Made by a program: the position numbers and the translations under genes. 64,000 bases of DNA from Caenimonas sp. SL110 (GTDB lineage Bacteria; Pseudomonadota; Gammaproteobacteria; Burkholderiales; Burkholderiaceae_C), in the NCBI RefSeq assembly GCF_001044395.1, contig NZ_JANU01000059.1:62001-126000 (forward strand). The letters are read 5' to 3'. The notes beneath the pieces were generated by a model that did not search any database, was not told where the DNA came from, and saw only the letters and a program-made list of their open reading frames with translations. Shown piece by piece: positions 10,294 to 64,000 of the stretch. The number at the start of each line of letters is the position of its first letter. Position 1 is the first letter of the stretch.

Positions 10294-10305
10294 TTGTTGG
10301 ATTTC

Positions 10306-11412
10306 TTAGTTGCCAAAGAATGCGTCGAGGCTGCTTCTTACCGCAGCAGCTATTCGAGCGGGTGCGTCCGGGGAATGAAGGCGCTCCTCGTCTTTGCCGG
10401 AGACTCGCGCGGTTTCAACGAGCACCGCGGTCATCCTTGTCACATTGGGTTTGAGTACGGCTATATCGTCGATTTCCACCCTGCTACCCCTGTTGTTAAC
10501 GCCGAGGCTGGAGGAAACGGAACTGGCCAACAAGTCGGCGAGCGGCTTCGATTGCGGTTTTAGGATGTGGTAATGCGTAGACGAACCGTGCGCAAATGGG
10601 AAGGAAATTGCCGTGCCTGGCACGATCGCCGGAGCGTTCGCGTGAATCGAGATGAACACCTCGGCTCGTTCGAAAGCCGCCTTGGCTCCCCGCTGAAGGT
10701 AGGTCGGACAGTCATTCACATTGCGCTTGGTAAGCACCACCTTGTAAGCAGTCGGCGGTAGCACTCGCTCGATTTCAAGTGCAATTGCAACGGTGAGGTT
10801 GTCCTCCTTCAGTTTGCCTGGCGGTGGATTGGAAGCGGGAAAGTCGGTCAGACCGATCGTTCCAGGGGGCAGCCCTTTTGCTGCGCAGCTGAGCCCATGG
10901 CCCGGATCGATAGCCACAATCCGCAGCGGCTTCGCGCCATAGCAAAGCGGCCCTTCATAGGTTCCGGCCCAATAGATCCCGCCGTCGTTCGGCCAATACT
11001 CGGTGTAGCCAGCAGGGCAGGTGAACGGTTCGCGCTGCCCCACCACGGTGAGCCAGGCGGTTTCTGCGGGCTGGCCCTGGGACCAGACGACGTTGATTTG
11101 CATCGACGCATACTGCCGCTGACCGCGTGAGCCCAGGGTCCATCCGGAAAGCGATCCGTAGCTGAGCGAGTAGGTGATTTGCGTGAAAAAAGTGTTGAAG
11201 GCCGACTGGGTGAACCCCACCGCCGCACCCGCGCTCGAAAATTGCGGTGAGGCGAAACCGGACGCAGCGGTTGCGGTGTAAGCCCAAGGGGACGAAATGT
11301 TGGGAACACATTCGTACGTTTTCCCTTCAATGACGCAAGGGGCCGCTTGCGCAGCGATCCCCCATGAAAGCAGCGCAAACGCCAGCGCCGCCCTGACGAT
11401 CCAGTCTCTCAA
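10306..11412 (-). CDS. N-acetylmuramoyl-L-alanine amidase (Amidase_3) with a novel N-terminal domain
   Basis: Zinc amidase expected to cleave the amide between N-acetylmuramic acid and the stem peptide. The catalytic domain spans about residues 165-368, with the zinc histidine in AIDPGHGLS, a zinc glutamate in LKEDNLTVAIALEIE, a second histidine in VFISIHANAP and a catalytic glutamate in AVLVETARVSG. A signal peptide covers about residues 1-23. Residues 25-160, with paired cysteines (CVIEGKTYEC, FTCPAGY, PLCYG), match no domain I recognise. The likely start is a TTG with a GGGAG ribosome site five bases upstream. Probably an operon with the TolB-like gene. Confidence 0.83.
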   Translation of the reverse strand: MRDWIVRAALAFALLSWGIAAQAAPCVIEGKTYECVPNISSPWAYTATAASGFASPQFSSAGAAVGFTQSAFNTFFTQITYSLSYGSLSGWTLGSRGQRQYASMQINVVWSQGQPAETAWLTVVGQREPFTCPAGYTEYWPNDGGIYWAGTYEGPLCYGAKPLRIVAIDPGHGLSCAAKGLPPGTIGLTDFPASNPPPGKLKEDNLTVAIALEIERVLPPTAYKVVLTKRNVNDCPTYLQRGAKAAFERAEVFISIHANAPAIVPGTAISFPFAHGSSTHYHILKPQSKPLADLLASSVSSSLGVNNRGSRVEIDDIAVLKPNVTRMTAVLVETARVSGKDEERLHSPDAPARIAAAVRSSLDAFFGN

Positions 11413-11493
11413 TATTGCTCCCGTTAAAGCTTGAACTCTAACGTTATTGCAATACTTAATGACTCACTTTTTCAGTGAATTAGTTCCGGAGAG

Positions 11494-11996
11494 TTAGTCG
11501 TGGGGTCTGGTGAAGTACTCGACCCCGACCTTGAGCTCTTCATAAATCAGGTAGTCCGTCGGCGTCATACCGAGCGCCGCATAGGTCTGCTGCGCAATGT
11601 CGTTGTCTTTCTCGACGTAGAGGCGAAATCCGCAGACAGCGGCATCAGCCTTCGCGAGGTCGCGCACGTATTCGTAGAGTCGCCGGTACACACCTTGCCG
11701 ACGCCAGTCCTTGACGACGTACACGCTCTGGATCCACCAGAAGATGCCGTTGCGCCAGTCGCTCCACTCGTTGGTGATCATCAGCCCCGCGACGACTTCG
11801 CCACTCTCGTCTTGCGCAACGATGTAGAAACCCATCGCCGGGTTTTCAATGAGGCGGCGCACGCCCGCACCGATCACCTCGGGCATCAACACCTTGTGCT
11901 CGGTCTCCAGCGCCATCGCCGCGTTGAACGCAGCAATGGTCGCCGCATCGCGCAGCTCGCCCTTGCGCAGCGTCAGCGATGCGGCGTCACGTTGGG

Positions 11997-12000
<4 letters not shown>
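11494..12000 (-). CDS. GNAT-family N-acetyltransferase
   Basis: The acetyltransferase domain begins at [20 protein letters not shown] and includes the acetyl-CoA loop [18 protein letters not shown] and the terminal [10 protein letters not shown] segment. The reading frame stays open upstream to 12117, but that extension is the antisense-frame shadow of the ABC gene. No ATG or GTG lies at the right place. I take the CTG at 12000, which overlaps the ABC stop by four bases and has GAAGAAGG six bases upstream. It is the last gene of the peptide transport operon and may acetylate an imported or released amine. Domain is clear, start is uncertain. Confidence 0.75.
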
Positions 12001-13006
<1,006 letters not shown>

Positions 13007-13010
<4 letters not shown>

Positions 13011-14008
13011 GCTGTGGCTCCGACGCTGGCAGAGCGAGTCACCACGCCATGCGCATCGTGCAGCCAGCAAGCCGCGCGAGTGGCACCCGCGTCGAGCAAC
13101 TCGGGCCGTTCAACCGTGCAGCGGTCGAACACGCGCGGGCAGCGCGGGTTGTACGCGCAGCCCTTGGGGATGGCGGTCAGGCGCGGCATCGATCCATCGA
13201 TCTGGTTCAGGCGCTCGCGGTCGATGGTGATGTCCGGGATCGCGGCCATCAGGCCGGATGTGTACGGATGCGCCGGCTGGTTGATGACTTCATGCACCGG
13301 GCCGATTTCAGCAATGCGACCGGCATACATCACGGCTACGCGGTCGCAGGTTTCGGCGATCACGCCCATGTCGTGCGTGATCAGCATGACGGCAGCGCCG
13401 CGCTCCTTGCAGATACGCTTGAGCAGCTGGATGATCTGCGCCTGGATGGACACATCAAGCGCCGTGGTCGGCTCGTCGGCGACGATCAGCTTGGGCTCAG
13501 CCGCAAGCGCCAGCGCAATCACGACGCGCTGTCGCATGCCGCCGGAGAACTGGTGCGGGTAGTGATCGATGCGCTCCGCGGCTGCAGGGATGCCGGTGTC
13601 TTCGAGCAGGCCGATCGCGCGACGCTTGGCTTCCGCATCATTGACTGGCAAGTGCGCCTGTATCGTCTCCGTCAGCTGGCGTCCGATGGTGTACAGCGGA
13701 TTGAGCGAGGTCAGCGGGTCCTGGAAGATCGCGCCGATCTTGCGCCCGCGTATGTGACGCATCTGGTCGAACGTCATGTTGTCGATGCGCTGGCCTTCCA
13801 GCAGCACCTGGCCTGATGCGATGCGGCCCGGCGGCTCCAAGAGGCCGATGATCGCCGCGCCTGTGAGCGACTTGCCCGCGCCGGATTCTCCGACCACGCC
13901 CAGGATTTCGCCGGGTGCGATGTCGAAGGAGATGTCGTCGATGGCGCGCAAGGTGCCGCGCCGGCCAGGGAATTCGACGATGAGGTTTTGTACTTGCAGG
14001 AGACTCAT
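13007..14008 (-). CDS. peptide ABC transporter ATP-binding subunit (DppD/OppD-like)
   Basis: First ATPase of the peptide importer, 333 residues. Walker A is GESGAGKSL, the signature is FSGGMRQRV and Walker B is [12 protein letters not shown]. The C-terminal [14 protein letters not shown] cysteine motif matches the Dpp/Opp extension. Walker A has Leu after GKS, where Ser or Thr is usual; GxSGAGKSL is common in this subfamily and compatible with activity. It sits 13 bases downstream of the DppC-like permease and overlaps the second ATPase. The two ATPases presumably form the asymmetric heterodimer of this class. Confidence 0.93.
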
Positions 14009-14021
14009 TGTTCTTGTGCTC

Positions 14022-14933
14022 TCAACGAAGTCTCGGGTTGAGCGCGTCGCGCAGCCAGTCGCCCAGCAGGTTCACCGACAGCGCGATCAGGATCAGCATG
14101 ACACCCGGGAAGATGGTGATCCACCACTCGCCGGAGAAGAGGTAATCGTTACCCACGCGGATCAGCGTGCCCAACGATGGCGAGGTCGGCGGAACGCCCA
14201 CGCCCAGGAACGACAGCGTGGCTTCGGTGATGATGGCAGAGGCCACATGAATCGTGGCCAGCACCAGCACCGGGCCGGTCACGTTCGGCAACACGTGCCG
14301 CACCATGATTCGAAGCGGCGCCACGCCGGTCACTCGCGCGGCTTGCACGTATTCCTTGTTGCGTTCGACCATGGTCGAGCCGCGCACCGTGCGCGCGTAC
14401 TGCACCCAACCCGTGAGCGTGATCGAGACGATCAGCACGCCGAAGGCTAGCCCCTCGTGCGCCTGGGGGAACATGGCACGCCCGACACCCGCGATCAGCA
14501 GCGCGACCAGGATGGATGGAAACGACAGCATCACATCGCACAGGCGCATGAGGAAGGTGTCGATCCAGCCGCCGCGAAAACCAGCGAGCAACCCGAGCGA
14601 CACGCCAATGATCATCGAGAAGACGACCGACGCGATGCCGACGACCAGCGAGATGCGGGCACCGTAGATCAGGGCCGACAGGATGTCCCGGCCCTGGTCG
14701 TCTGTACCCAGCAAATACTTGCGCGAACCGAGCGCATCCCATGCCGGCGGAAGCCGTGCATCGGACAGCACCAGGGTCGTCAGGTCGAACGGGTTGTGCG
14801 GCGCTACCCAGCCTGCAAAGACGGAGCAGAAGAGGCACACGAAGGCGATGGCGCCGGCCAGCATCGCAACCGGGGAGGTGCGAAAGCTGTAGCCGACATC
14901 GCTATCGAACCAGCGGGCAAGGGTCTGTTTCAC
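14022..14933 (-). CDS. peptide ABC transporter permease (DppC-like)
   Basis: Inner-membrane permease with the OppC N-terminal segment (MAGAI-type first helix at about 25-47) followed by five more helices and the EAA-like loop YVQAARVTGVAPLRIMVRHVLPN. I take the GTG at 14933, overlapping the binding-protein stop (GTGA), giving 303 residues; an in-frame GTG at 14951 would add six. Its partner permease (DppB-like) is not adjacent: an M20 hydrolase and a binding protein lie between them, an unusual but collinear arrangement. Confidence 0.92.
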   Translation of the reverse strand: MKQTLARWFDSDVGYSFRTSPVAMLAGAIAFVCLFCSVFAGWVAPHNPFDLTTLVLSDARLPPAWDALGSRKYLLGTDDQGRDILSALIYGARISLVVGIASVVFSMIIGVSLGLLAGFRGGWIDTFLMRLCDVMLSFPSILVALLIAGVGRAMFPQAHEGLAFGVLIVSITLTGWVQYARTVRGSTMVERNKEYVQAARVTGVAPLRIMVRHVLPNVTGPVLVLATIHVASAIITEATLSFLGVGVPPTSPSLGTLIRVGNDYLFSGEWWITIFPGVMLILIALSVNLLGDWLRDALNPRLR

Positions 14934-51039: not shown

Positions 51040-51432
51040 TTAGGTCTGACGATTTACGACTTGTGGACGAAGGTGCATCAGCTGCCCGGCCTTAGCAGGC
51101 AGTCTTTGAAACGCATGCCACCTATCGCGCGCGAGCCGTGCCTGCACTATCTGTACGAACCGCTCGGGACTTGGAGGGTCGCTTCGCTTGTGTCGCGCTT
51201 GGTTGCAACGCCGACATGCCGCGACGATGTTACTTTGGTTATCACCTCCACCCTCACATCGCGGCACTAGATGCTCGGCAGTGCATTGCAATTGTCTGGC
51301 CTGACGTCGGGTGTAGCCGAATAGCTGGATCAGTTCATGGGGTAAGTGCATCCACATTTCGAACCCGCAGTAGAAGCATCGGCCACCTTGCAAATGGAAT
51401 GCGGCGAGTCTAGAACGGTGAAGAATTTTCAT
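51040..51432 (-). CDS. HNH endonuclease
   Basis: 130-residue nuclease. The zinc-holding cysteine pair CFYC is near residue 19 and a second pair is in CRRCN. The HNH core is TAEHLVPRCEGGGDNQSNIVAACRRCNQARHKR, in which the catalytic His, central Asn and terminal His are all visible. Stand-alone HNH proteins of this size occur in islands as nicking or restriction nucleases. Divergent from the NERD gene; no methyltransferase partner is adjacent. Confidence 0.85.
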   Translation of the reverse strand: MKILHRSRLAAFHLQGGRCFYCGFEMWMHLPHELIQLFGYTRRQARQLQCTAEHLVPRCEGGGDNQSNIVAACRRCNQARHKRSDPPSPERFVQIVQARLARDRWHAFQRLPAKAGQLMHLRPQVVNRQT

Positions 51433-51700
51433 CAGGGACTCCAGTTAAGGTTGTCCCCGATGGCCTACAGCTCAGAGCGGGCATCGGCGGTTATCCGGCC
51501 GATGATGCTGCGCGTTGCGCGACAGCGGTCCCAGAAGCCTGGGCGCACGATTAGTCTAGCCCCAAACCGTGCGCTTAGGAAGTTAGCGATAGAGCGGTAA
51601 TACGAAACTTCCCCCAGCCCTTCAACGCTTGGCCGTACAGTTGTCCGCGCACTGCTGCGGCGATAAGCTGCGGCACTACAAAAACATTCAGGAGGCTGAA

Positions 51701-52678
51701 TTGCTATTAAAAACCGCCGACGACAAATCCAAGCGCCTTTCCCTCCTTGAGGACTTGCAAAAGTCGCCGTTGCTCGATGCAAAGCAAAAGACATGGCTTC
51801 GTCAAGAACTCGGGCGCTTCCGCAAAGGCATTCAGGGCGAGCGGGATTCTGCCTACTACCTTGATCAGTACTTCAAGGGAGGCGAGAACCACGTCGTCTT
51901 GCACGATTTGCGGTTCGTCGTGGATGGCGACGTTGCACAAATTGATCACCTGATCATCAATCGCGGATTCGGCATGTACCTGATTGAGACAAAAAACTAC
52001 GGGGGAAGTCTTTCGATCAACGATCACGGGGAGTTCACCGCTGAATACGATGATGACCGATTCGGCATTCCATCTCCGATTGAGCAGAGTCGCCGGCACG
52101 AACGCATTCTGAAGCGACTGTTATCGACTTTGGGCATTGCTAATCGCACCGGTGCTTCAATTGATTGCCACCACTTGGTGATGCTTCACCCCAAGGCCAT
52201 CATCCAGCGGCCCCCAGCTAAGATCTTCGACACTAGCAACGTGATCAAGGCCGACCAGTTTCCGACCTGGCATGGTCAGTTTGTCGAGAAGACCGTGGGT
52301 TTCGCCGGTGCACTAAAGATGGTCGTGAACGTTCGGTCACTGGACACGGTTAAGGAGTGGGGCGAGATGCTCATGCGACAACATCGGCCCGCAAACCTAT
52401 TGGACCTGCCTGACTTTATGCAGCCTCGTGGCCGGGCTGCGACGCCGGCGGTGAAGGGCGAACAGGTAGCTGCACCGGCGACTAACATCGGGGCGCAATC
52501 GCCGGTCCTCTCTGTGGCTGCTCAATCTTCTGGGGGTGAAAGCCAGCCACTGGCGCGGAAACTTATTTGCGCTCACTGTAGTTCGAAGATCACGTTTCCT
52601 GAAGGGAAGTTCTGCTGGAACAACGAAAAGCGTTTCGGGGGACTTCAGTACTGCAGAGAGCATCAGGCGTTGTTCTGA
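51701..52678 (+). CDS. NERD-domain nuclease-like protein with C-terminal zinc motif
   Basis: 325 residues from a TTG at 51701 with a strong AGGAGG five bases upstream; no ATG is suitably placed. The NERD domain (about 45-165) has the nuclease-like pattern GIQGERDSAYYL, VVDGDVAQIDHLIINRGFGMYLIETKNYGG, in which Glu, Asp and Glu-x-Lys form the putative PD-(D/E)xK site. A low-complexity linker (about 245-285) leads to a four-cysteine C-terminal finger (LICAHCSS, GKFCWNN, YCREHQ). It is probably a DNA-processing nuclease of the island. Convergent with mcrC. Confidence 0.85.
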   Translation: MLLKTADDKSKRLSLLEDLQKSPLLDAKQKTWLRQELGRFRKGIQGERDSAYYLDQYFKGGENHVVLHDLRFVVDGDVAQIDHLIINRGFGMYLIETKNYGGSLSINDHGEFTAEYDDDRFGIPSPIEQSRRHERILKRLLSTLGIANRTGASIDCHHLVMLHPKAIIQRPPAKIFDTSNVIKADQFPTWHGQFVEKTVGFAGALKMVVNVRSLDTVKEWGEMLMRQHRPANLLDLPDFMQPRGRAATPAVKGEQVAAPATNIGAQSPVLSVAAQSSGGESQPLARKLICAHCSSKITFPEGKFCWNNEKRFGGLQYCREHQALF

Positions 52679-52745: not shown

Positions 52746-54047
52746 TCAAGGGCGAGACAGTAGCCGGCCGACAATGCCGGTCAAATCACCCATCCGCAGC
52801 GGAAGGCGGTCGTCATCGACGTCGACACACAATATGCGGACGGTGGCCGCGACCCCATTGATCGGCGGCAGTCGAAACTCGGTGTTGACGGCTGCAATGA
52901 GCCCGTGGTGCCGCGGATATATCAACGCCAGCTCCGTACATCGGAAAGCAGTGGCATACGCGTTCATCTGATACATGTCCGCTTCGCTCGGCACTTGTCG
53001 ACCTTTGCGATCCAGCTCCAGGAGCTTCCATTTCGTGTCTGCGATCGCCACGACTTCGGAGCCTCGCTGAATCACAAGATCGGGCCGGAGCGCAAAGCTC
53101 GGCTCATCCCGACCTGCCGCTGCCACCATGGCCAGTGTGCGAGTGGAATCTTGAGTCAGCACCTGTAGGTCGGGATGTCGGCTCGCTTGTCGTCGCAAGG
53201 TGTTTGCCACAGCCGACTCGAACAGCTTGTTCATGTCAAACAGCAACGCCGGGGCTTCGTTTCGACCTGCTCTAAGCGCGGGCGCCAAGAGCGCCAGAAT
53301 CCAACGGGCCCAGTCAATCGCCGTTCGGTAGCGCTCGGCGCGCCTATCGAAGTTGAGCCGAACCACCTCTACCGGTGTGAGCTGTCCATCGTTGACCTCA
53401 TCGAGAACGCCCAGAAGCTCAACCCATCTGCGGTTAAGTTCAACGCTGCGAATCCATGGCCTGGTGACCCGAATCGCCTTCTTCAACACGCGGTTCCATA
53501 CGTTGTCGGCAGTCAGTTCGTCGAACGCACAAGCGATGAGGTCGGGGCGATTCGCGTGAACGCCCATCTGCCGTCCGACCACGATACGGCCACGCACGAG
53601 GCACAAATCTTCCTCGTGCTCCTGGTACTGCCTGAGCAGGCCACCGCGAAGGACGCTGCTGACTGAATCAAAGAACGCGGCAATGAAGGCTTCGAGTAGG
53701 GGCGCGCGGCGCAGATGTTGCCCTGCAGGGAGGTGCTGAAACTGAGGGAAGCGGTCGGTCAGCTTCAGAAGACGAAGCAGAACTCCGCGACATTGCTCCG
53801 CCGTGTCGTTGCCGCCTTGAGTCTTTGGCAGAACCTCCAAGACGCGCCCGCCCAGACTGACAACGCCGCAGTACTGCGCGAGCTTTAATTTTCGGTGGCC
53901 CAGCTCGCAGAATCCGCGCCTTAGTTCGCCGATCTGCGCGAGAGCCTCAGCCTCTGCCGGGGTCAGGCTTCCGCCAACCCCTTCGGCAGTGATGGGGATA
54001 GGCTGGTGCTCCAGCGCTGTTAGGAACCTCGCGGACGCGGCAGTCAT
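52746..54047 (-). CDS. mcrC: McrC-family nuclease subunit
   Basis: 433-residue partner of McrB in modified-cytosine-type restriction. The N-terminal half carries the McrC beta region (YCGVVSLGGRVLEVLPKTQGG), and the C-terminal PD-(D/E)xK nuclease reads FALRPDLVIQRGSEVVAIADTKWK, with Asp and Asp-x-Lys in place. The MNKLFESAVANTLRRQ segment and the closing LCVDVDDD tail are typical. It follows mcrB by ten bases and is the last gene of the seven-gene defence operon. Confidence 0.93.
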   Translation of the reverse strand: MTAASARFLTALEHQPIPITAEGVGGSLTPAEAEALAQIGELRRGFCELGHRKLKLAQYCGVVSLGGRVLEVLPKTQGGNDTAEQCRGVLLRLLKLTDRFPQFQHLPAGQHLRRAPLLEAFIAAFFDSVSSVLRGGLLRQYQEHEEDLCLVRGRIVVGRQMGVHANRPDLIACAFDELTADNVWNRVLKKAIRVTRPWIRSVELNRRWVELLGVLDEVNDGQLTPVEVVRLNFDRRAERYRTAIDWARWILALLAPALRAGRNEAPALLFDMNKLFESAVANTLRRQASRHPDLQVLTQDSTRTLAMVAAAGRDEPSFALRPDLVIQRGSEVVAIADTKWKLLELDRKGRQVPSEADMYQMNAYATAFRCTELALIYPRHHGLIAAVNTEFRLPPINGVAATVRILCVDVDDDRLPLRMGDLTGIVGRLLSRP

Positions 54048-54057
54048 TTGCTGCTGG

Positions 54058-56298
54058 TTAGGCGGTTGGGATCACCCCAGGCGCATCTTCATAGATGCCG
54101 CGAAAGCCGCTGGCTGTCCAACTTGCTGGCGACGTAACAATGAAGCGCGAACGATCCCCTGGGCCCCCGTCAAGTTGCTGGCACCCGAACAGGCCACCGA
54201 AGCTCAATTGCTCCTCTTTCACGAACGCCTGATCCCCTGTCGTTGAGAGCACCAGAGCAACGCGAGAGAAGTCGTCGAAGAAGTACTCCTGCAGCAGCGG
54301 AATCAACTGCTTTGCGAACGCCTCCCTAACGCTGTCTAGGGTCTGCGCCTTCATCAAGTAGGCGTGGCCAATGCGGTGGTCGCGATCTAGCAGGTACTCC
54401 AACCGGTCGTTGATCCGCCTAAGCAGCGAACCAAGCTGGACACCTTCGACGACGGTGGCCAGCGTTTCATAGTCCGGCCCGCGCTCTTCGAACTGGAAGC
54501 GCCGCCTCAGGGCAACATCCAGGAGCGCGATCGAGCGATCCGCCGTATTCATCGTGCCGTAGATATCGAGATTCTTTGGCACTCCAAACGGCCGCTCAGC
54601 TGAGTCTGCCTGCTCCTCACCCGGCAGGTGCACTGCCAGACCCTCGACCAAGCGTCCCTGCGCGTCAAACACCGCGCGCTTGTCCGGCTCGATCAACGTA
54701 ATCAGCTCGCCAAAAACCTTGGCGATGTTGGCCCGATTGATTTCATCGATGAACAGCGCGTAGCGCTTGCCAGGGTTCGCATGCGCCTCGTCGCAGATCT
54801 GCTTGAACTTGCCGTCAACCAAGCGGAACTGCGTTGCTCCATCCTCGGCGATCCTGACCGGCCGAATTCCACGCACGAAGTCTTCGTAGGTGAACGAGGG
54901 GTGAAAAGTCACCACCTTGTACCGATGGATGGCTTCCGTGGCTGCCTTCGGTCCGGCCTTCAACGTCCGCCAAAGTTGCGCTGACTCATCATCCTGTTCT
55001 TGCCAACCAGGTATCAGCTGCCAGTCGCCAGCTTCGCGTTTGTCGAAAAGGTACGGTGGCCGGCGGATGCTGATGTTGACTGTCTTGCTGGTCTCTGGTG
55101 TGTGCTCCTGCAGGTATCCCCACAGCGTGGCCTGAACGCCGGCCGGCGCCCTGCCGCGTTGCTTTGCCTTCGCGTGGACCCACCGATGGGCTCGGATCTC
55201 TGGCACCCTTGCCGGGTGCCCCAGGTCGGCCAGTGCCGCCGCGATGACACTGCGCCAGCCATGTACCGTCAAGGTCTCCTGTAGCCAGCTCTCGGGGTCG
55301 ACGTCGTTGGGGGCGTCGGTGTAGTCCTTGAAGCGTTCTCGCAACCAGTGAGTCTTGCCGGTCCCAGGGGGGCCATACACGATCAAGTTCGTCGGTGCCG
55401 CCATCTGCGGGACTGGTGTGGCGGCAGCCTTCTGTTTCGATGACTCCGCAGCCGACGGCTCTTGGACTACTGGTACTGCAACCAGCTCCTCATCCTGTTT
55501 GGCTGAGCGCCACTGCGCCTCCAGCGGCGGCTCGTAGAAGTCCAGCGCCTTGCCGGGGTACTTCGCCTCGCAGTCTCGCCGCAGCTTGAGTAGCGCGTCA
55601 TCAAGCTGCCGATCCGTCCAACCTTTCAACTGCGACCGCGATGCGACCTTGAAACCCTCCAGCACAGAGATCCTGTCTCGATTGGAAGACATGCGCTCAA
55701 CCCGATCCGGATAGGCGAAGTAGCGCAGCATGTGGCGGAACTGCCGATCGCCATCACGCTGCACTGATTCAATCCACTCCACGAATCGTTCATAGTCTTC
55801 AAAGATCGACTTGCGATCCGAAGTCGACTTCGATTTCATCGACTGGGCAAGTGCAATCAGGTAGGCCAGCTCCTTCCACCGCAGGTTGTTGTAGGCGGTC
55901 CCCGCAGAGCCAACTCCCTGCACTACCTCAGATTCGAGCATCGGGTTGTCAGGCGGGAGCGTCTCCCCAGACCACGACCAGACGTCACGAACATGCTGGC
56001 GCTTCTTCTCGGCTCCGACATTTGACGGAAACAAGAGGAGCACCCACATCATTTCAGCCATCAATTGGCGGCCGGCTGGGCTCGCTGCCTCCATCTGACC
56101 TCGTAACTTGGTCATGAAGTCGTCGTCGCCAGCATCCAGATGGTCGACGAAGGCCGAGCGCAACTCCTCAATCAGAGGTGGGGTCCAGAGCGAGCGATCG
56201 CTCAGCAAAGATCCATCCGCCCAAAGGCAACGCTCGATCCATCTTTGCGCCGCTAACAAGAGGCGTGTGACATCGCGGTCGTGGAATTTGCGAGCCAT
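54058..56298 (-). CDS. mcrB: McrB-family AAA+ translocase with atypical N-terminus and an inserted helix-turn-helix-like domain
   Basis: 746-residue GTPase/ATPase motor of the McrBC pair. Walker A is VYGPPGTGKTH (about residue 309), Walker B is ALFIDEINRANIAKVFGEL and sensor 1 is YGTMNTADRSIALLDVALRRRF. The first 290 residues do not look like the usual 5-methylcytosine-reading domain; the FRHMLRYFAYPDRVERM segment may be a different specificity module. Between Walker A and Walker B some 190 residues are inserted, including WRSVIAAALADLGHPARVP, WGYLQEHTP and PYLFDKREAGDWQLIPG. This pattern resembles HARE-type winged helices. It is 25 bases downstream of the HNH gene. Confidence 0.9.
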   Translation of the reverse strand: MARKFHDRDVTRLLLAAQRWIERCLWADGSLLSDRSLWTPPLIEELRSAFVDHLDAGDDDFMTKLRGQMEAASPAGRQLMAEMMWVLLLFPSNVGAEKKRQHVRDVWSWSGETLPPDNPMLESEVVQGVGSAGTAYNNLRWKELAYLIALAQSMKSKSTSDRKSIFEDYERFVEWIESVQRDGDRQFRHMLRYFAYPDRVERMSSNRDRISVLEGFKVASRSQLKGWTDRQLDDALLKLRRDCEAKYPGKALDFYEPPLEAQWRSAKQDEELVAVPVVQEPSAAESSKQKAAATPVPQMAAPTNLIVYGPPGTGKTHWLRERFKDYTDAPNDVDPESWLQETLTVHGWRSVIAAALADLGHPARVPEIRAHRWVHAKAKQRGRAPAGVQATLWGYLQEHTPETSKTVNISIRRPPYLFDKREAGDWQLIPGWQEQDDESAQLWRTLKAGPKAATEAIHRYKVVTFHPSFTYEDFVRGIRPVRIAEDGATQFRLVDGKFKQICDEAHANPGKRYALFIDEINRANIAKVFGELITLIEPDKRAVFDAQGRLVEGLAVHLPGEEQADSAERPFGVPKNLDIYGTMNTADRSIALLDVALRRRFQFEERGPDYETLATVVEGVQLGSLLRRINDRLEYLLDRDHRIGHAYLMKAQTLDSVREAFAKQLIPLLQEYFFDDFSRVALVLSTTGDQAFVKEEQLSFGGLFGCQQLDGGPGDRSRFIVTSPASWTASGFRGIYEDAPGVIPTA

Positions 56299-56323
56299 GA
56301 TTGAGGTCCAGTGCTAGTCATAG

Positions 56324-57448
56324 TTATGGAGCTGCGACACCCAGCTTGCCAGCATCGAACAAGCCAACAGCCTTGCAGGCTTGTAGGAAGCTATGCTTCA
56401 GGAAGTTGCCGTTGGCATATGGCGACTTTTGAGTGTGCCGACTGACATCTTGGAGGTACTTTTCTGGCGGCTTGCCTTCTGCGCCAGTAGACTTTTCATT
56501 CCAGCGCCATTCATCCAACACTTCAACAAGCCACGCCGTTCCATCGACACCGAGCAGCTTTGCTCGGTAACGTTCCTCAATGCCGTACACATCTTTCCAA
56601 GTCTCGATTTGATCTGCAACTCCTGCCGGGCCGAAGGAGAGGTCAACCTCCGCAGGCGTCATCGTCTGGAGGTCTACCCGCGTCAGAGTCACCTTGATAT
56701 CGATCCCGGGGTGAGCCTTCGAGAAGGGAAAGAAAACCTTCCGCCTCGTCGCAGCACGGGTAGGATCTTTTGGCGTGAACGCTGGATCTTTGCTGGTCTT
56801 GTAACTGCTATTGCAGTGGTGGCACGCCGGAACAAGATTTCGGAAGTTAATGGAATTAAACGGGTATATCGCTTTGGGCAAGTAGTGGTCATACGCCTCT
56901 CGCCTTGAGTGGTACTCGCCCAAAAGGTCGCTAATTCCACAGAATGGACACTTGTCCCCATTGTTCTTCCGCACAAAGGCTTTGTAGTGACTGGTGATGT
57001 CGCCGATCTTGTCTCTCAGCGCCGCCAGGCTCAGCAGCGAGTCCGAGTACAGGCCCTTGAAAAAGTCTGCCAGTTGTTCGCTGAGGACAGGATGTGAAGC
57101 AGCAATGTCAACATAGCGAGCGAGATGCACCCTCGGCCCGTTGGCACACAAGTCTTCCAGACTGTTGTTGCCCTGATGCCACCGTTTGAACTGCGCGATC
57201 TCACGCCGGGGCAAGCCTGAGAAGCTTTCATAAATGGCCTGCACCTGTGCGTAGAACCGATCGCCAGCCTGCGTATCGCCGTAGGCAAACGATGTCATCA
57301 CCTCTTTGAGTGGCGGATTGGCGTCAAAAAGGTCCAAGGAAAAGGCACCTGCCTTCGGTGCGCGGCACCAAACTTGGTAGACGATGAAATTGATGAAGCG
57401 ATGCATGCGCTCCATCTGATGTGGAACATAGGTGTAGGCGAACAACAT
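56324..57448 (-). CDS. HNH nuclease partner of the adjacent ATPase (PtuB-like)
   Basis: 374 residues. A central HNH module (about 165-220) comprises KCPFCGISDLLG, then YDHYLPKAIYPFNSINFRNL and VPACHHCNSSYKTSKDP: two CxxC zinc pairs flanking the Asp-His and Asn positions. Long N- and C-terminal regions have no recognisable domain. The start shares a base with the ATPase stop (TGATG), so the pair is translationally coupled. ATPase plus HNH is the composition of Septu (PtuA/PtuB) defence and of the retron-associated version; here the pair lies between hsdS and mcrB. Confidence 0.82.
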   Translation of the reverse strand: MLFAYTYVPHQMERMHRFINFIVYQVWCRAPKAGAFSLDLFDANPPLKEVMTSFAYGDTQAGDRFYAQVQAIYESFSGLPRREIAQFKRWHQGNNSLEDLCANGPRVHLARYVDIAASHPVLSEQLADFFKGLYSDSLLSLAALRDKIGDITSHYKAFVRKNNGDKCPFCGISDLLGEYHSRREAYDHYLPKAIYPFNSINFRNLVPACHHCNSSYKTSKDPAFTPKDPTRAATRRKVFFPFSKAHPGIDIKVTLTRVDLQTMTPAEVDLSFGPAGVADQIETWKDVYGIEERYRAKLLGVDGTAWLVEVLDEWRWNEKSTGAEGKPPEKYLQDVSRHTQKSPYANGNFLKHSFLQACKAVGLFDAGKLGVAAP

Positions 57449-59238
57449 CAGGCCGTCACCTCCTCGGGGCCCGTCTGATCGCTAGCAAGAATTGCCTGGA
57501 TCAACAGTACCTTTTCCACCGAATCACCGAGCTGCTTCTGGATCTTTGCGATCAGTTCTTCCTTGCTCTCGCCACCCTGCTCAAAGCGGGCGCGCAGTTC
57601 GCCCAGCAGTTCTTGTGCGTGGCCGCCGATCGTCTCGCGCTTACCAAAGGTCGTCATAGTGATCTTGTTGATGGATGCGCCCAGGGTGTTGTAATCAGGG
57701 CGGCTGATCGTGACTAATCCGCTCTCTCGGTCCTTCTCGAAGACCAGCACTTTTTCCGGTTTGCTATCCGAGATAAGGAAAGGCGAGTGCGTGGTGATCA
57801 GCATCTCTTGCCCTACTTTTCCCGAATCGGATAGGCACTGGCGCAGGCGGGTAATGAAGTTAGCGCGCCAATTCGGGTTGAAGTGCGTCTCGGGCTCGTC
57901 GAGTAGGAATAGGCTGTTAGTCCCCCGGAATAGCAGACACAAGCCGAGGCTGTGCAGCAACTGATGCTCGCCGTCCGACAGTTCCTTGAGCATCATCGAT
58001 CGCGTCACGCCCTGTTTGGAAAAGCGCACGAATTTGAAACGCATGATGCGCTGGTCAGACGCCAGCGTTGGCACAGTCTCACTGACGTAGTGACTAGTTG
58101 AACGGTACAGATCGGCCTTGAGCGCATCGCTTACGGCATAAAGATTAAGCGTCAGCAGTACCTGAAACGCCTGGAACAGGGCCAGCGGCGAGCCTTCGAA
58201 GTTCTCACGAAACGCCTGCTTGACACCGTCATTCACCCAGTAGTCGAGCACCAACGTGTCGGTGGCTGCATCGACGTAACTCAATGTCGCACAGCGCTTG
58301 AGAGCGCTCACTATCAGCGAGGACTTCTCATCGCCCTCGATCAACTGCATAAGGTTCAGGCGGTAGTGTCGGTCGCCGGCGTCATCCGTTTCCGCGCGCA
58401 AGGCGGGGTTGCTAGCCACGATGTCATCAAGTGATTGGCGCTGGTTGTGGTCCTCGCTGGCGAAGTCGGCGAGTTGGTCCGGCGCAATGGGGATGCTGCG
58501 TCGGAGGATGATGCGAAACTCCCGCAGCGCCTCGATGCCGATATCCTCGCGGAAAGGCTGCAGCGTGGCATGGTCCTGAAATAGCAGGTTGCACAGCAAG
58601 ATCGCTTGACTAAAGCCGTTATCCAAATAGGCCAGCCGTGTGTCCGGGTGGCCGGGATAGCTCAACTGCCGGTGCAGCGAATTCCAGTATTCGTCGAACT
58701 GCACAAAGCGCAGTTTGAAGAACGGCAGGCTGAGAATTTCGTTCTCGCCGGACGAGTAGCCCAGCACGTACTGGGGCAACAGAATGTCGGCATGACCACC
58801 TTTGAATGCCTCATAAACGTCCGTATCAAAGGCGCTCTGGTTCGCCCACTGGAAGCGCACAGACTCGCCAGGGGCTTTCCAGACGGCGACCCGAGCCCAC
58901 TCCGGGCCATCCGGGCGGATGTATTCGGGCGGGACACGCATTAGGTAGTCCAGCTCAAACGCCGCTGGAAAAAAGCCCTGATCCGCGTTTTGCAATAGCT
59001 CGGGCAGAAAGCTGCGCCGCACACGCAGGATCTCCAACTGAAAGAAGATTGACGCTAGCGCTTCGAGCAGGTTGGACTTGCCGCTCCCATTAGAACCAGC
59101 GCACACAAAGGGCGCAAAAGCTTCGGGCTCTGTTAGTTCGTCCTGCAAACTCCATTCAGTGCGGAAATGATGCTCAAAACCAAAGGGCAAGCTGCGAAAG
59201 CCGGCTGGGTCGGTGATTTTGAGGCGCAGCAATTTCAC
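57448..59238 (-). CDS. restriction-associated ABC/SMC-type ATPase (PtuA-like)
   Basis: 596 residues. Walker A is CAGSNGSGKSNLLEAL (about residues 46-61). The ABC signature is LKELSDGEHQLLHSLG and Walker B with D-loop is LFLLDEPETHFNPNWR. The switch histidine lies in LITTHSPFLISDS. No TOPRIM nuclease domain follows, which separates it from OLD proteins. ATPases of this sort are known as companions of type I restriction genes. It overlaps hsdS by four bases and the HNH gene by one. It probably senses or holds DNA and controls the HNH nuclease. Confidence 0.85.
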   Translation of the reverse strand: MKLLRLKITDPAGFRSLPFGFEHHFRTEWSLQDELTEPEAFAPFVCAGSNGSGKSNLLEALASIFFQLEILRVRRSFLPELLQNADQGFFPAAFELDYLMRVPPEYIRPDGPEWARVAVWKAPGESVRFQWANQSAFDTDVYEAFKGGHADILLPQYVLGYSSGENEILSLPFFKLRFVQFDEYWNSLHRQLSYPGHPDTRLAYLDNGFSQAILLCNLLFQDHATLQPFREDIGIEALREFRIILRRSIPIAPDQLADFASEDHNQRQSLDDIVASNPALRAETDDAGDRHYRLNLMQLIEGDEKSSLIVSALKRCATLSYVDAATDTLVLDYWVNDGVKQAFRENFEGSPLALFQAFQVLLTLNLYAVSDALKADLYRSTSHYVSETVPTLASDQRIMRFKFVRFSKQGVTRSMMLKELSDGEHQLLHSLGLCLLFRGTNSLFLLDEPETHFNPNWRANFITRLRQCLSDSGKVGQEMLITTHSPFLISDSKPEKVLVFEKDRESGLVTISRPDYNTLGASINKITMTTFGKRETIGGHAQELLGELRARFEQGGESKEELIAKIQKQLGDSVEKVLLIQAILASDQTGPEEVTA

Positions 59239-60785
59239 GCCTGTACAGCCTTGAGTTCGATATGGTTGCCCGCGGCATTAAACCCCTGCGTCAGAGTGCC
59301 ATCGGCCAGCGCATCGAACACCCACGCCTTGATGTGCTCGTAGTCGTTGGCGCCTAGCGCGAAGTCGTTGTCCGGGTGCATTTCTGCCAGCCGGGTTTGC
59401 ACCGCCGCCATGAAGTGCTGCACCAAAAACGGCGTGCGGCCCAACTGACCGCGATAGGCCTCCAGCCACTGCGCGATCAAACCCACGCGCGCCTCGGCGC
59501 TCTCCTGCGCAGCGAACGGGTTGTCGCTCTCAGGCAGGTTGACGGCCAGGTTTTGGAGGGTGGCACTGTGTAAGGGTACTACTGCCACAGGTCCCTCTTC
59601 TTCAGCGCGTATGCCCGGCGACGGCACGCGCGATAGATCCAGTTCGCCCTTGAAGGCCTGTTGGCTCAACGCGCCGTGAAGCGTTTCCAGATCGGCGAGG
59701 CTTTGTTGGCAGGGGATTTTGATCCTATAGACATTTTTCACTGCCTCCGAAAATTGGATTTGAAGATCCTTCGGAGGACGAATCATTGGCGTGCTGTTAC
59801 AGACAGTCTTGTTCATGTAAGGAAGCGTCGTCTGCGAGGCGTTCTGATACATGTACTTTTGTTGGAACCATAAGGAGTACATAAAAAACTCCTCGCTCAT
59901 CACCTTTGAGACTTGAAAGGCATGAATTTGCTGGTTTATCACCATGTCACTACCGGTGATACTGACAACACCCAAGTCGCCAACGCAGGTTAATAGCACG
60001 CTTGATTTCGGAACAACTCTCGCACGGACTTCTTGGATCTCTTCATCCGACAAGCCGATTCCGCCGCGCGATCTCTCCGTAACTCCGAGGGGCTGCAGGT
60101 CACCAGTTGTAACCCATGGTGTTCCTCCGCTAAATGTCTTCGGCTTATCTCGTCCAGGGACAATGCAATCTGCGTAGTCAATGGCAGTCTTCTTCTCCCA
60201 GCCTTTCTCATTGCGCATAGGGTCCCCAAAAAGCTCAAGAAACAAACTCTTGAGCAGGTCGTCGAGTTGTTGCAGCTGCTGTTTGCGCTGGGCGATCAGC
60301 CCTTCCACTTTTCCGAGCAGATGGTCAATCTTGATTTGATCGGCCAGGGGAGGAAATGGGATTTCGAGATCAAGAAAGTCTGCTTTTGTTAGGCTCCGTC
60401 TACGCGCGACAGCTCCCTGCATGCGCGACGCGTAAAGACTTCTGGCCTGGGACGACCGCAGATAGCGCTCAAGATAAGGAATGTGGCAATCCGCCTCGTT
60501 CTTGAGCCTCCAGATATCGTAGGCCGGGCTCACAATTCCCGCTGGATATTTGGTCTGAAATCCCAGTACGCCTTCGTCAATTGGGAATCCGACGACAAGC
60601 TCATTCTTATATGCGATGCGGTAGTTCGACGTGTCTGAACTGGCAATACGCTTCTTGAACTTGTCTGCTTGGTCCACCAAGCCATGTTTCATTGTGATTG
60701 AAAGCACTGGAAGGTCCTGACTACCAGCACGGTGGCGACCAGACTGATCCAAGATTTCACCAAGGGGTTTGGCCGCCCAACTCAT
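59235..60785 (-). CDS. hsdS: type I restriction-modification specificity subunit, with C-terminal extension
   Basis: 516 residues with two target-recognition domains, each followed by a conserved helix: PFPPLADQIKIDHLLGKVEGLIAQRKQQLQQLDDLLKSLF (about 142-180) and the shorter QFSEAVKNVYRIKIPCQQSLADLETLHGALSQQAF (about 345-380). About 130 residues are added at the C-terminus (from PSPGIRAEEEG to the end, with AEARVGLIAQWLEAYRGQLGR); these are not part of a standard HsdS and resemble a small helical module. It overlaps hsdM and the ATPase gene by four bases each. Confidence 0.93.
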   Translation of the reverse strand: MSWAAKPLGEILDQSGRHRAGSQDLPVLSITMKHGLVDQADKFKKRIASSDTSNYRIAYKNELVVGFPIDEGVLGFQTKYPAGIVSPAYDIWRLKNEADCHIPYLERYLRSSQARSLYASRMQGAVARRRSLTKADFLDLEIPFPPLADQIKIDHLLGKVEGLIAQRKQQLQQLDDLLKSLFLELFGDPMRNEKGWEKKTAIDYADCIVPGRDKPKTFSGGTPWVTTGDLQPLGVTERSRGGIGLSDEEIQEVRARVVPKSSVLLTCVGDLGVVSITGSDMVINQQIHAFQVSKVMSEEFFMYSLWFQQKYMYQNASQTTLPYMNKTVCNSTPMIRPPKDLQIQFSEAVKNVYRIKIPCQQSLADLETLHGALSQQAFKGELDLSRVPSPGIRAEEEGPVAVVPLHSATLQNLAVNLPESDNPFAAQESAEARVGLIAQWLEAYRGQLGRTPFLVQHFMAAVQTRLAEMHPDNDFALGANDYEHIKAWVFDALADGTLTQGFNAAGNHIELKAVQA

Positions 60786-62491
60786 CCCACCACTCCCTTC
60801 AGCTCCAGCAGCTGCCGCACGATCCCGCTTTTCACCTTTACAAGCTCCGCCTCATCCACATCGCCCACCTCGGCCTGGATCAACCGGTCCAGAATAACGG
60901 CCGGCGAGTCGTAGTGAACTTCCTCGAACACGTCATCCTTGTAACGGGACAGCGAAAGGTCGAAATTGTTCTTCTCGTCTGCGATCTCGGTGCGTGGCAC
61001 CAAAAAGCATTTGGCGGTGCGGTCGGTGTCAGCGGCCTGGCTGCGGGCGTGGTATCTGACAACGATGTCCTGCAAGTCGCCATAGCCCTCCTGCTTGCTG
61101 CGTTTGTCGTCCAGCGAATAGCCGTCGGCGGCCATTTCGTAAAACCAGACGTGTTCGGTGGCGGGCTTGTCCACTTTGTCCTTCGGCCCCCAAACCTTTG
61201 TGAACAGCAGGATGGCGGTGCTGACCCCGGCATAGGGTTTGAACACGCCACTGGGCAGGGTGATGACGGCTTTGAGGTCGCAACGCTCGACCAGCAATTG
61301 GCGCAGCGTTCTGAAAGCGCCGCCGGAGCCGAACAGCACGCCCTGCGGCACGATCACACAAGCCGTGCCGCCCTTCTTCAGCAGGCGATAGATGTTTTCG
61401 ACAAACAGCAGCTCGGTCTTGGTGGTGCCCAGTTGCAGGTTTTCGTTGATGTCGCCCTTGTCGATGCTTCCGGTAAAGGGCGGGTTGGCCATCACGATGT
61501 CGTACTCGGATTCCTCGGTGTAGCTCTTGCTGAGGGTGTCCTTGTAATCAATGTGCGGCACGTCGATACCGTGCATCATCAGGTTCATCAGCCCCAGACG
61601 CACCATGGTTGCGTCGATGCCGTAGCCCCACAGTGAGCTGGCCAAAATGGCTTGGACCTTCTCGGTGAGGGCCGCAGCGAGCGATGTGCGGACAAAGCCG
61701 TCTTCATCGGGCGTGAGATTCGTTGTGCCGGCCTTGATAGCCAGTTGCGTGACGATGTACTGGTAGGCACCGAGCAGGAAGCCGCCGGACCCGCAGGCCG
61801 GGTCGGCGATCTTGTGGCCCAGCTGCGGCTGCACCAGATCGGCCATCAGCTTGATGATGTGGCGCGGGGTGCGGAACTGGCCGTTCTTGCCGGCGGTGGC
61901 GATCTCGGACAGCAGCATTTCATAGACGTCGCCCTGGATGTCCTGGAACGCCTGGCCCTTGTCCTTGGAGTCCTTCTCCATCACCTCGAAGATTTCGTCG
62001 ATGGTTTTCACCGCCTCCACCAGCAGGGCTGGCTTAGGGATGATGAACACAGCGTTCTTCATGTGGTGGGTGAAGTTAGACTCCGCGCCGTTCAGGTCCT
62101 TGAGGAACGGGAACACGTTGTCTTGCACGTGCTCCAGCATCCGATCTGCCGGGCTGACGAATTTGAACTCACTCCAGCGCAAACTGCGCCTTTCGATCGC
62201 ATACCGTTTTTCGTCTTCCAACTTCTTCAGGCGCTCCTCTGGCGAGTCTTCGTCACGAAGATTGGCCCTGAACCTCGGCGGAATCCACTTGCCATCGAAC
62301 TTCGAGGAGTATTTCTCACCCGTGAATTCGGCGTCTGACTTGCGCTTCAGGTCTAACTCATCCAGCCGCTTCATGAACAGCAAATAGGTAATCTGCTCAA
62401 TGGCCGTGAGTGGGTTGCTGATGCCACCGCTCCAGAATTTGTTCCAGAGTTGGTCAATCTTGCTTCTAAGTTCAGGGTTGTTTTGCAGCAT
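60782..62491 (-). CDS. hsdM: type I restriction-modification DNA methyltransferase subunit
   Basis: 569-residue adenine-N6 methyltransferase. The HsdM N-terminal helical domain covers about 1-150 (KIDQLWNKFWSGGISNPLTAIEQITYLLFMKRLDE). SAM-binding motif I is KIADPACGSGGFLLGAYQY and the catalytic motif IV is MANPPFTGSIDKGD, with NPPF as in adenine methylases. It modifies host DNA at sites chosen by HsdS. It is 15 bases after the hsdR stop and overlaps hsdS by four bases. Confidence 0.96.
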   Translation of the reverse strand: MLQNNPELRSKIDQLWNKFWSGGISNPLTAIEQITYLLFMKRLDELDLKRKSDAEFTGEKYSSKFDGKWIPPRFRANLRDEDSPEERLKKLEDEKRYAIERRSLRWSEFKFVSPADRMLEHVQDNVFPFLKDLNGAESNFTHHMKNAVFIIPKPALLVEAVKTIDEIFEVMEKDSKDKGQAFQDIQGDVYEMLLSEIATAGKNGQFRTPRHIIKLMADLVQPQLGHKIADPACGSGGFLLGAYQYIVTQLAIKAGTTNLTPDEDGFVRTSLAAALTEKVQAILASSLWGYGIDATMVRLGLMNLMMHGIDVPHIDYKDTLSKSYTEESEYDIVMANPPFTGSIDKGDINENLQLGTTKTELLFVENIYRLLKKGGTACVIVPQGVLFGSGGAFRTLRQLLVERCDLKAVITLPSGVFKPYAGVSTAILLFTKVWGPKDKVDKPATEHVWFYEMAADGYSLDDKRSKQEGYGDLQDIVVRYHARSQAADTDRTAKCFLVPRTEIADEKNNFDLSLSRYKDDVFEEVHYDSPAVILDRLIQAEVGDVDEAELVKVKSGIVRQLLELKGVVG

Positions 62492-62506
62492 GGGGGTGCC
62501 TGTGTG

Positions 62507-64000
62507 CTATGCAGCTAACCGTTCGGTGAGTTGCAAGATTTCGTCAATTTCGCTGGGGCTGAACACACCGCGGATGCCCCGGGGGTGGATGACCGTGAAG
62601 GGGGTGTTGATCAGGTCTCGCTTCTCTACCTTCTCGCGCTCGACGATGAAATTCTTCAACAAGTTAAGGAACTCCATTTGGCGGCTAGACAAAGTGGTGT
62701 GAGCCCGGATGAACTGGTCAAACGCAGCGCCGACTTGGTCCGGGAAGCTTCTGAGTACCTCAATACCCAGGATGTGACGTATGAATTGGATGAACCGTGC
62801 CTTGCGGTTCTTGTAGACCTGCTGAAGCAACGCCTCGGTAATGTGCGGATGTTCTTCATGCAGAAGCGCGGCCAGTGCATCGGCTTCATCGGTACTCACG
62901 GCGTCGCCGTTCTTTATCTTCTGCAGCACTGGGTTGTGCTCGGTCATTTCGGCAATCAGCGACTCGACCATTTCGCGATAGCGAGTGATGCTCACCGCTT
63001 CATGCTGCGGTCCGAACTCGACCCATTCCTTCTTGTGCAGCTCGTCGGCCAGATCGAGATGCATTTGGTCCTGGCCGGTGGTTTGCTCTCGGAACTTCAT
63101 CAGTGGGCCAAGCTTCGCAACCAAGTCGTCGTAGGAGTCTTCATCGGCCTTGGCCCAGTAGTGCGCGTTCTGCGCTGCGCGAATCAGCACCTCTTCCTGC
63201 TTTACGAAGCTGACCGAGAGCGGAAGCTCGCTGATTTGTTCCACGATGCCCTCTTTGATCGTCTCCGCCCTCTCCTTCTCTTCACTCAGCAACGCCAACG
63301 AGTATTCAAGAAGATCGCGCTCGAAGCGCATGGCCTTGAAATCGGCGTCGGAGACGGTGCGAAACAAGGGCTTGATCTCAGCACGCAAGAATTCCAGCCT
63401 CTCGTGCGTGACGCTGATCCAGAAGTCTTCTTCTTCGAGTCGAGCCAACGCCGTAGTAGCCTCCTTGATCACCACTGACTCTTTGGGCAGCACCGCAATC
63501 TGAGAGCGGAGTTTGACGATCTCGCGATCGGTGATATCAGGCAGACCACTGTCGTTTGCCTTTTCGATCTTGTCGAGCCGAAGTCCGACCAGCCGTACCG
63601 GCAATGACAGTTGCGGCTTCAGTTCCTTGCCCTTGGGGTTGAGCTTGAAGTAATCAAAGTTGTCCCAGCAATCCAGAATCAGGAAGACGTCTTTCTCAGG
63701 ACACCATGGCTTGGGCTTGTTCGCCTCCAGCAGCCGAGTGCCTCGCCCTACCATCTGCCAGAACTTGGTGTACGAGAAGACCGGCTTGGCAAAGACGAGG
63801 TTGACTATCTCGCGCACATCGATACCGGTGTCGAGCATGTCGACGCTGATCGCAATGCGGGGCATGTCGTTGTTGGTGAACTGGTCGAGCAGGCCGCCTT
63901 TGCCGTAGACGCGCGGATCGTCTGAGACCAGCACCTTGGCCAGTTCGCCGTGGTACTGGGGGAACAGCTTGTCGAAGATCTCCTCCATGCGGCGCGCATG
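62507..64000 (-). CDS. hsdR: type I restriction endonuclease subunit R, C-terminal part (cut by the window edge)
   Basis: The open frame continues to the last base of the window, so only about the final 498 residues are visible. They start within the second helicase lobe: ISVDMLDTGIDVREIVNLVFAKP (motif V) and KFWQMVGRGTRLLEANKPKP (motif VI), followed by the long helical C-terminal domain of EcoEI-type HsdR that docks on the methylase. The nuclease domain and Walker A lie outside. ATG codons inside (such as 63988) are internal. First visible gene of the leftward defence operon. Confidence 0.95.
   Translation of the reverse strand, partial: HARRMEEIFDKLFPQYHGELAKVLVSDDPRVYGKGGLLDQFTNNDMPRIAISVDMLDTGIDVREIVNLVFAKPVFSYTKFWQMVGRGTRLLEANKPKPWCPEKDVFLILDCWDNFDYFKLNPKGKELKPQLSLPVRLVGLRLDKIEKANDSGLPDITDREIVKLRSQIAVLPKESVVIKEATTALARLEEEDFWISVTHERLEFLRAEIKPLFRTVSDADFKAMRFERDLLEYSLALLSEEKERAETIKEGIVEQISELPLSVSFVKQEEVLIRAAQNAHYWAKADEDSYDDLVAKLGPLMKFREQTTGQDQMHLDLADELHKKEWVEFGPQHEAVSITRYREMVESLIAEMTEHNPVLQKIKNGDAVSTDEADALAALLHEEHPHITEALLQQVYKNRKARFIQFIRHILGIEVLRSFPDQVGAAFDQFIRAHTTLSSRQMEFLNLLKNFIVEREKVEKRDLINTPFTVIHPRGIRGVFSPSEIDEILQLTERLAA

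Follow-up and report, generated by a model that had tools for sequence, protein, structure and literature searches.

A type I restriction-modification operon of Caenimonas sp. SL110 with a PtuA-like ATPase and HNH pair, an associated HsdS C-terminal domain and an optional McrBC

The window, by which we mean the whole 64,000-nucleotide stretch of Caenimonas sp. SL110 DNA that was analysed, ends in a tightly packed run of seven genes in which a type I restriction-modification (R-M) system, an ABC-type ATPase paired with an HNH nuclease, and the type IV restriction genes mcrB and mcrC follow one another on the reverse strand. The genes and their notable parts, in the order of reading and with the basis of assignment in parentheses, are:

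62507..64000, continuing beyond the window (-): hsdR, 3' part, type I restriction subunit with an EcoEI_R_C domain (open reading frame [ORF] and Pfam)
60782..62491 (-): hsdM, type I N6-adenine DNA methyltransferase subunit (ORF and family models)
59235..60785 (-): hsdS, specificity subunit of 516 amino acids with a C-terminal extension (ORF and family models)
59238..59480 (-): HsdS C-terminal domain, about residues 436-516, predicted helices and a beta hairpin, winged-helix-like
57448..59238 (-): PtuA-like ABC-type ATPase of TIGR04435, GTG start (NCBIfam and PADLOC models, motifs)
56324..57448 (-): HNH nuclease, with a PtuB-like core within an otherwise unmatched helical protein
56798..56950 (-): HNH core, residues 167-217 (invariant columns in 40 sequences)
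54058..56298 (-): mcrB, AAA+ NTPase of type IV restriction, its N-terminal part without a Pfam match
52746..54047 (-): mcrC, nuclease component of McrBC (PF10117, 225 bits)

Recomputed from hsdR to mcrC, the spacings are 15, -4, -4, -1, 25 and 10 bases, which reproduces the seven co-directional genes and the distances given in the first-pass annotation of this DNA and supports its description of one compact operon holding type I R-M, the ATPase-HNH pair and McrBC. Pfam models match McrC, the AAA domain of McrB, HsdS, HsdM and the C terminus of HsdR. The three subunits of a type I R-M system, HsdR, HsdM and HsdS, are encoded together, with hsdR interrupted by the end of contig C55, 484 bases past the window; relatives carry a full-length hsdR. 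By sequence models, the mcrB AAA+ NTPase adjoins the mcrC nuclease, as in McrBC type IV restriction.

The same annotation had seen no room for an internal terminator or a full promoter. Between 52600 and 64000, no sigma-70-like promoter was found against 3.5 expected from shuffles. Terminator-like sites in this range were at chance level (13 found versus 11.7 expected), and one 9-pair stem with a five-T tail, on the operon strand at 60255-60233, lies within the hsdS coding sequence and could be chance. Because of this stem, we consider it only likely that the operon is read as a single transcript.

The window ATPase matches TIGR04435, the "restriction system-associated AAA family ATPase", at 800.7 bits (cut-off 300) and over residues 1-586 of 596, that is, above the curated cut-off and at full length; this family is a hypothetical equivalog in NCBIfam. 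PADLOC models gave part matches, with calling thresholds not applied, of the ATPase to PtuA1 (172.8 bits, E 3.5e-51) and of the HNH protein to PtuB1 (34.4 bits), and the NCBIfam model for the PtuA of retron Ec78 matched the ATPase at 43 bits against a cut-off of 500. An alignment profile of the ATPase matches solved PtuA chains (best E 2.3e-13). Across 39 ATPase sequences, G48, G51 and G53-S55, L420-E424 and D447-E448 are invariant, which we take to be the Walker A, signature and Walker B motifs, respectively. No Pfam model matches the window HNH protein at E 0.001. Its core is matched by the PDC-M01B, PDC-M62B and PtuB models in 38 to 40 of 40 members (25 families, among the matches listed), and C167, C170, D187, H188, N204, C212, N213 and K217 are invariant in the 40 sequences, with C209 nearly so. 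The invariant columns show intact ABC ATPase motifs and a paired-cysteine HNH, as in Septu (PtuAB). By the model and profile matches, the two proteins are relatives of the PtuA and PtuB of Septu and retrons. The structure of the HNH protein was predicted with a mean pLDDT of 90.1; a Foldseek comparison of this fold with the PDB gave no match better than E 1.9, and an HNH profile found nothing convincing among PDB chains (best E 0.06). The HNH gene appears to have been exchanged separately, since in three loci (L033, L036, and L057) its product is only 37% identical to that of the window despite HsdM being at least 70% identical.

A scan for the ATPase in one genome per species yielded 50 loci, to which plasmid loci and loci of other genomes were added. 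The order hsdM-hsdS-ATPase-HNH was present in nearly all loci found through the ATPase, where the contig reaches, usually behind hsdR, and the five-gene order hsdR-hsdM-hsdS-ATPase-HNH recurs across several phyla with near-fixed junctions. With the window included, the ATPase and HNH genes overlap by 1 base in 44 of 55 related loci, hsdS and the ATPase gene by 4 bases in 38 of 57, and hsdM and hsdS by 4 bases in 43 of 54. The hsdR/hsdM spacing lies between -30 and 60 bases in 27 of 42 loci and is exactly 15 in 14. Junctions conserved to this degree are not chance. The first-pass annotation had treated type I restriction, the ATPase-HNH pair and McrBC as three modules that normally act alone, a description that is not supported because the pair recurs behind hsdM-hsdS in nearly every ATPase locus and because the very name of TIGR04435 records a link to restriction.

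In these counts L070, a second copy of L027, is included for the ATPase/HNH and hsdS/ATPase junctions and in the set of 55 HsdS, and is left out of the 57 HsdS tested for the C-terminal domain below. L024 and L068 are the same contig, of which one was used, and L144 and L147 were left out because their contigs equal those of L036 and L027, respectively, in length. Exceptions to the order were a locus with hsdM behind HNH (L066) and two with only part of the ATPase (L064 and L067). Additional genes were found between hsdR and hsdM, encoding RhuM/Fic (L031), Bro-N (L043 and L170) or AlbA-type (L045) proteins, and a DUF1016 protein is encoded between hsdM and hsdS in L029. Broken members also occur, with a split hsdS (L014), a broken hsdM (L019), a split HNH gene (L034), a split ATPase gene (L055), and, in Pectobacterium (L041), several broken genes in a widely disrupted operon; L034, L041 and L055 represent decay within the operon family.

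The five-gene unit is rare. Within the order, 3 of 399 genomes, that of the window among them, encode an ATPase scoring above the TIGR04435 cut-off. In Escherichia coli, DNA similarity to a Citrobacter gene placed the ATPase in 96 of 5426 complete genomes, with identities of at least 90% in 11 of them and of 60-80% in the other 85; an HNH query likewise matched 96 genomes, and the two sets of 96 may differ. One E. coli chromosome (L159) carries a complete five-gene version.

The HsdS proteins of these loci share a C-terminal tail, in which the consensus DYxxIKxxVFxALxxGxLxQ precedes a D...N.I.LK stretch. Using a leave-one-out profile from which tails of at least 60% identity were removed (E <1e-3), we detected the tail in 52 of the 57 HsdS encoded beside the ATPase. 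For comparison, we assembled a control set of 60 stretches with HsdM_N matches from the same order, hand-picked and mostly best-scoring, 46 of which were at least 15 kb long. With the full profile, the tail was found in none of 49 control HsdS lacking the pair, K-12 included, and in none of seven from other pair-less loci. Three controls (L087, L102, and L109) gave weak ATPase matches (47, 42, and 32 bits, respectively), and none matches the HNH profile. Loci added later were concordant, L169 having both pair and tail and L168 and L170 having neither. By its distribution among these proteins, the C-terminal domain of HsdS goes with the ATPase-HNH pair; a Fisher test on the counts overstates the association, since it takes related loci to be independent. 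Structure prediction for the tail gave helices and a hairpin (mean pLDDT 86.6), and the weak PDB matches of the tail include many winged helices, for example, the kleisin C-terminal domains 4i99 and 6qpq, which are bound to SMC or cohesin heads. A tail profile found nothing convincing among PDB chains (best E 0.028), and a kleisin-like identity is a lead only.

Four loci (L133, L145, L168, and L170) belong to the same HsdR/HsdM subfamily and have neither the tail nor the pair, their HsdS ending before the domain. In a quick HsdM tree, they stand at different places among the pair-bearing loci. In that tree L169 was mislabelled as ATPase-less and L146 ends before the region; statistics on the "noATPase" label were therefore set aside, and use of the tree here is limited to the drawn places of these four loci and L171, which lacks the pair, has lost hsdS and was excluded from the tail counts. 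Directly behind the tail-less hsdS of L168 (7824-10049) and L170 (8774-10999) lies a gene for a 741-amino-acid P-loop protein, the best model for which is PDC-S46 and which exceeds the Pfam AAA_13 cut-off in L170 only. An identification of this protein as PrrC was not confirmed by the models. Its position is suggestive of an effector slot behind hsdS. In L145, the region behind the tail-less hsdS (9675-14585) encodes a 310-amino-acid protein, a UG5-nitrilase reverse transcriptase (1065.6 bits) and PDC-S18, and in L133 the next gene behind hsdS is on the opposite strand.

Parts of the system also co-vary. Distance correlations were computed for 45 of 59 loci, 34 of which form a close set with HsdM at least 70% identical to that of the window; 14 loci with broken, cut or missing genes were left out. 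In the close set, distances between HsdS tails correlated with those between ATPases (rho 0.74), compared to 0.40 with the rest of HsdS (target recognition), 0.50 with HsdM and 0.05 with HNH, and HNH against HsdM gave 0.16. The last third of the ATPase also tracks parts of HNH (0.37-0.49). These correlations fit a chain that would run from the HsdS tail through the ATPase to HNH.

Among 48 loci whose sequence reaches at least 3.5 kb beyond hsdM on its upstream side, a profile search found no HsdR beside hsdM-hsdS-ATPase-HNH in six: L016 (a Priestia plasmid), L017 (a Hymenobacter plasmid), L060, L061, L062 and E. coli KMi006 (L160). Upstream of hsdM, we found MnmE and a YidC-like protein in L060, a GmrSD-N protein in L061, EPSP synthase in L062, an integrase fragment in L017, and a Schlafen-group-3 helicase with an MrcB-N protein in L016; none of the tested upstream neighbours in these five loci was HsdR. 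The stretches of L016, L017 and L160 contain no hsdR annotation, and E. coli JS316 (L161), with the same hsdM accession as KMi006 and the same order, has no hsdR annotated there. In KMi006 and JS316, genes for type IV secretion and for an ArdC family protein lie close to the operon, and these two loci are probably on an integrative conjugative element.

McrBC has a different distribution. McrC was found behind HNH in 4 of the 45 loci with at least 3.5 kb there, namely the window, Variovorax OV329 (L032), an Acidovorax metagenome-assembled genome (L018), and Flavobacterium aquicola (L058); adding K-12 to the profiles recovered the same four. The seven-gene order is not peculiar to this strain, because Variovorax OV329 carries all seven genes, with spacings within one base. 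The window and this locus are sisters in the HsdM tree (SH-aLRT 99), with 92% identity between their McrB proteins and 91% between their McrC proteins. L018 and L058 are placed elsewhere in that tree; their McrB match that of the window only in the AAA part (40% over 235 amino acids and 31% over 253, respectively), and their McrC align with it over 52 and 183 amino acids. From the restricted McrB matches and the separate tree positions, about three separate recruitments of McrBC behind HNH are probable. In L018 and L058 the genes overlap at McrBC. Among the 46 control stretches, one (L096, 16527-19900) has McrBC behind a type I locus without the ATPase-HNH pair, a frequency not distinguishable from that of the pair-bearing loci (4/45 versus 1/46, p 0.20). 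E. coli K-12 has hsdR-hsdM-hsdS-symE-mcrB-mcrC in one direction, so the layering of restriction and modification-dependent restriction was known in principle. According to a review (PMC12707154), some E. coli carry a GmrSD homologue in this region instead of the McrBC locus. As a stable unit, the proposed seven-gene order did not hold, with McrBC in only 4 of 45 loci and in what are probably three unrelated pairs, and the seven genes do not co-occur as a rule. On gene content, McrBC is an optional, occasional add-on to a five-gene core. Beyond mcrC, a NERD-domain nuclease-like protein is encoded convergently (51629-52678, +; its end 67 bases from mcrC), followed by a small HNH protein weakly similar to IscB and Cas9d models (51040-51432, -).

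The individual parts are of known kinds. The name of TIGR04435 already records a restriction-system link for the ATPase family; the present analysis adds its HNH partner, the domain on HsdS and the forms without HsdR. Septu and the type I-A retrons (Ec78/Eco7) share with the window an ABC-type ATPase followed by an HNH protein, as well as the model matches. The Septu pair is generally known as one encoded alone, without R-M genes, whereas here the pair sits inside a type I R-M operon, both in the window and in nearly every relative; moreover, the best-matching stretches are the C-terminal lobe of the ATPase and the HNH core, and no PDB fold match was found for the complete window HNH protein. 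EcoprrI with PrrC likewise has an extra effector encoded in a type I operon. PrrC, however, is one protein, an anticodon nuclease (an ABC-ATPase domain is stated for PrrC170 in PMC11555353), whereas an ATPase and an HNH protein, a dedicated HsdS domain and HsdR-less forms are found here. The immigration control region of E. coli K-12 has the same order and direction, hsdR-hsdM-hsdS-(x)-mcrB-mcrC, but symE takes the place of ATPase-HNH, set off from its neighbours by 227 and 161 bases; two promoters drive the transcription of EcoKI (PMC12707154). Weak matches also connect the window HsdM to MAD2 (114.7 bits) and the ATPase to MAD3 (29.9 bits) of MADS, but these scores fall well short of the curated thresholds (720 and 420 bits), so that the operon is not assigned to that system. 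In the open-licence literature, we recognised no description of this gene order, of TIGR04435 or of HsdS-linked effectors, nor did we find described there a tail linked to ATPase-HNH, an HsdR-less form or an exchangeable slot.

The reading that we prefer, at a probability of roughly 0.48, is a five-gene type I R-M system with an optional McrBC, in which the ATPase-HNH pair would form a second effector arm on HsdM-HsdS, attached via the tail. We infer that the HsdM-HsdS methyltransferase would act as platform and sensor, and that the HsdS tail, with its predicted winged-helix-like fold, would hold the PtuA-like ABC ATPase, which would control the HNH nuclease. The trigger may be the modification status that is read, or a disturbance by phage, through either unmodified DNA or an anti-restriction factor. 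In response, the ATPase would permit HNH to cut nucleic acid, independently of HsdR and as a second arm beside it. The target may be phage DNA or host RNA: Septu PtuAB is reported to act on DNA, and retron Eco7 PtuAB to deplete tRNA-Tyr (PMC11555353). McrBC would separately cut DNA with foreign modifications, its placement being an occasional convenience outside the core machine. In an extended form that we regard as doubtful, the enzyme would be a plug platform: the winged-helix tail would seat the ABC ATPase head in the fashion of a kleisin, the slot behind hsdS would accept exchangeable effectors (ATPase-HNH where the tail is present, PDC-S46 or other cassettes where it is absent), the arrangement with ATPase-HNH would work even without HsdR, and the HNH pair would be a second kind of type I restriction effector.

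Several observations weigh against the preferred reading. Two loci, L016 and L017, carry the ATPase with no tail detected, and in L015, L059 and L066 the tail fell below the threshold (E 0.0024-0.055). No Foldseek match at E 0.001 or better was obtained for the tail or the HNH protein, so the labels "winged helix" and "kleisin-like" are weak. The HsdM tree is a quick version with many open forks. The HsdR profile is narrow and found HsdR in few control loci, which is why the upstream neighbours were checked, and the absence of HsdR concerns the surroundings of the loci only, the rest of those genomes not having been searched for it. The tail correlation drops along the DNA (0.72, 0.64, and 0.40 for successive thirds of the ATPase), a fall-off with distance that recombination would also produce. 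Because the 3' end of hsdS adjoins the ATPase gene, both the joint loss and the correlated distances could be explained by linkage. Between the window and Variovorax, the tail region is 86% identical in DNA, compared with 66-73% over most of the ATPase gene's first half, which is a counter-example to strict co-evolution.

The main rival, tentative and on balance unlikely, is a guard resembling PrrC, in which the intact restriction complex would silence the ATPase-HNH pair until a phage anti-restriction factor releases it, whereupon host RNA or DNA would be cut and the infection aborted. There is precedent in PrrC, which is encoded within a type IC operon and becomes active once EcoprrI is inhibited by T4 Stp (PMC12707154 and PMC3874165), and the 741-amino-acid P-loop protein behind hsdS in L168 and L170 is suggestive of an effector slot, although the PDC-S46 match does not make it PrrC by the models used. 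This idea is weakened by the six loci of 48 without HsdR beside the pair, because such loci may have no restriction activity to guard; the methyltransferase-specificity complex could still be what is guarded.

Less probable again, we think, is an autonomous anti-phage module that shares the operon without contact to HsdM-HsdS. The PADLOC PtuA match, the reported action of Septu PtuAB on DNA (PMC11555353) and the HNH alleles, whose variation is independent of the other parts (rho 0.16 between HNH and HsdM among the close loci), would all suit such a hitchhiker, but it leaves unexplained the pairing with hsdM-hsdS in nearly every locus, the near-fixed overlaps, and the joint presence or absence with the HsdS domain. 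That R-M, ATPase-HNH and McrBC form one functionally coupled, layered system, as the coupling of the seven genes had suggested, is in our estimation very improbable. The short junctions shared by the window and Variovorax, the probable repeated recruitment of McrBC behind HNH and the overlapping genes in L018 and L058 speak for it; against it stand the 41 of 45 loci without McrBC, the confinement of similarity in L018 and L058 to the AAA part of McrB and short McrC alignments, a frequency of McrBC that cannot be told apart from that of control type I loci, and K-12, where mcrBC follows hsdRMS without the pair.

HsdR is generally regarded as the single effector of type I restriction enzymes. 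Should the ATPase-HNH pair dock via the HsdS domain and be able to replace or back up HsdR, a phage that blocks HsdR would still face a second response, and further genes of unexplained role adjoining hsdS would become testable as plug-in effectors. The HsdS domain would provide a simple handle for such work, and the complete five-gene version is present in an E. coli chromosome (L159).

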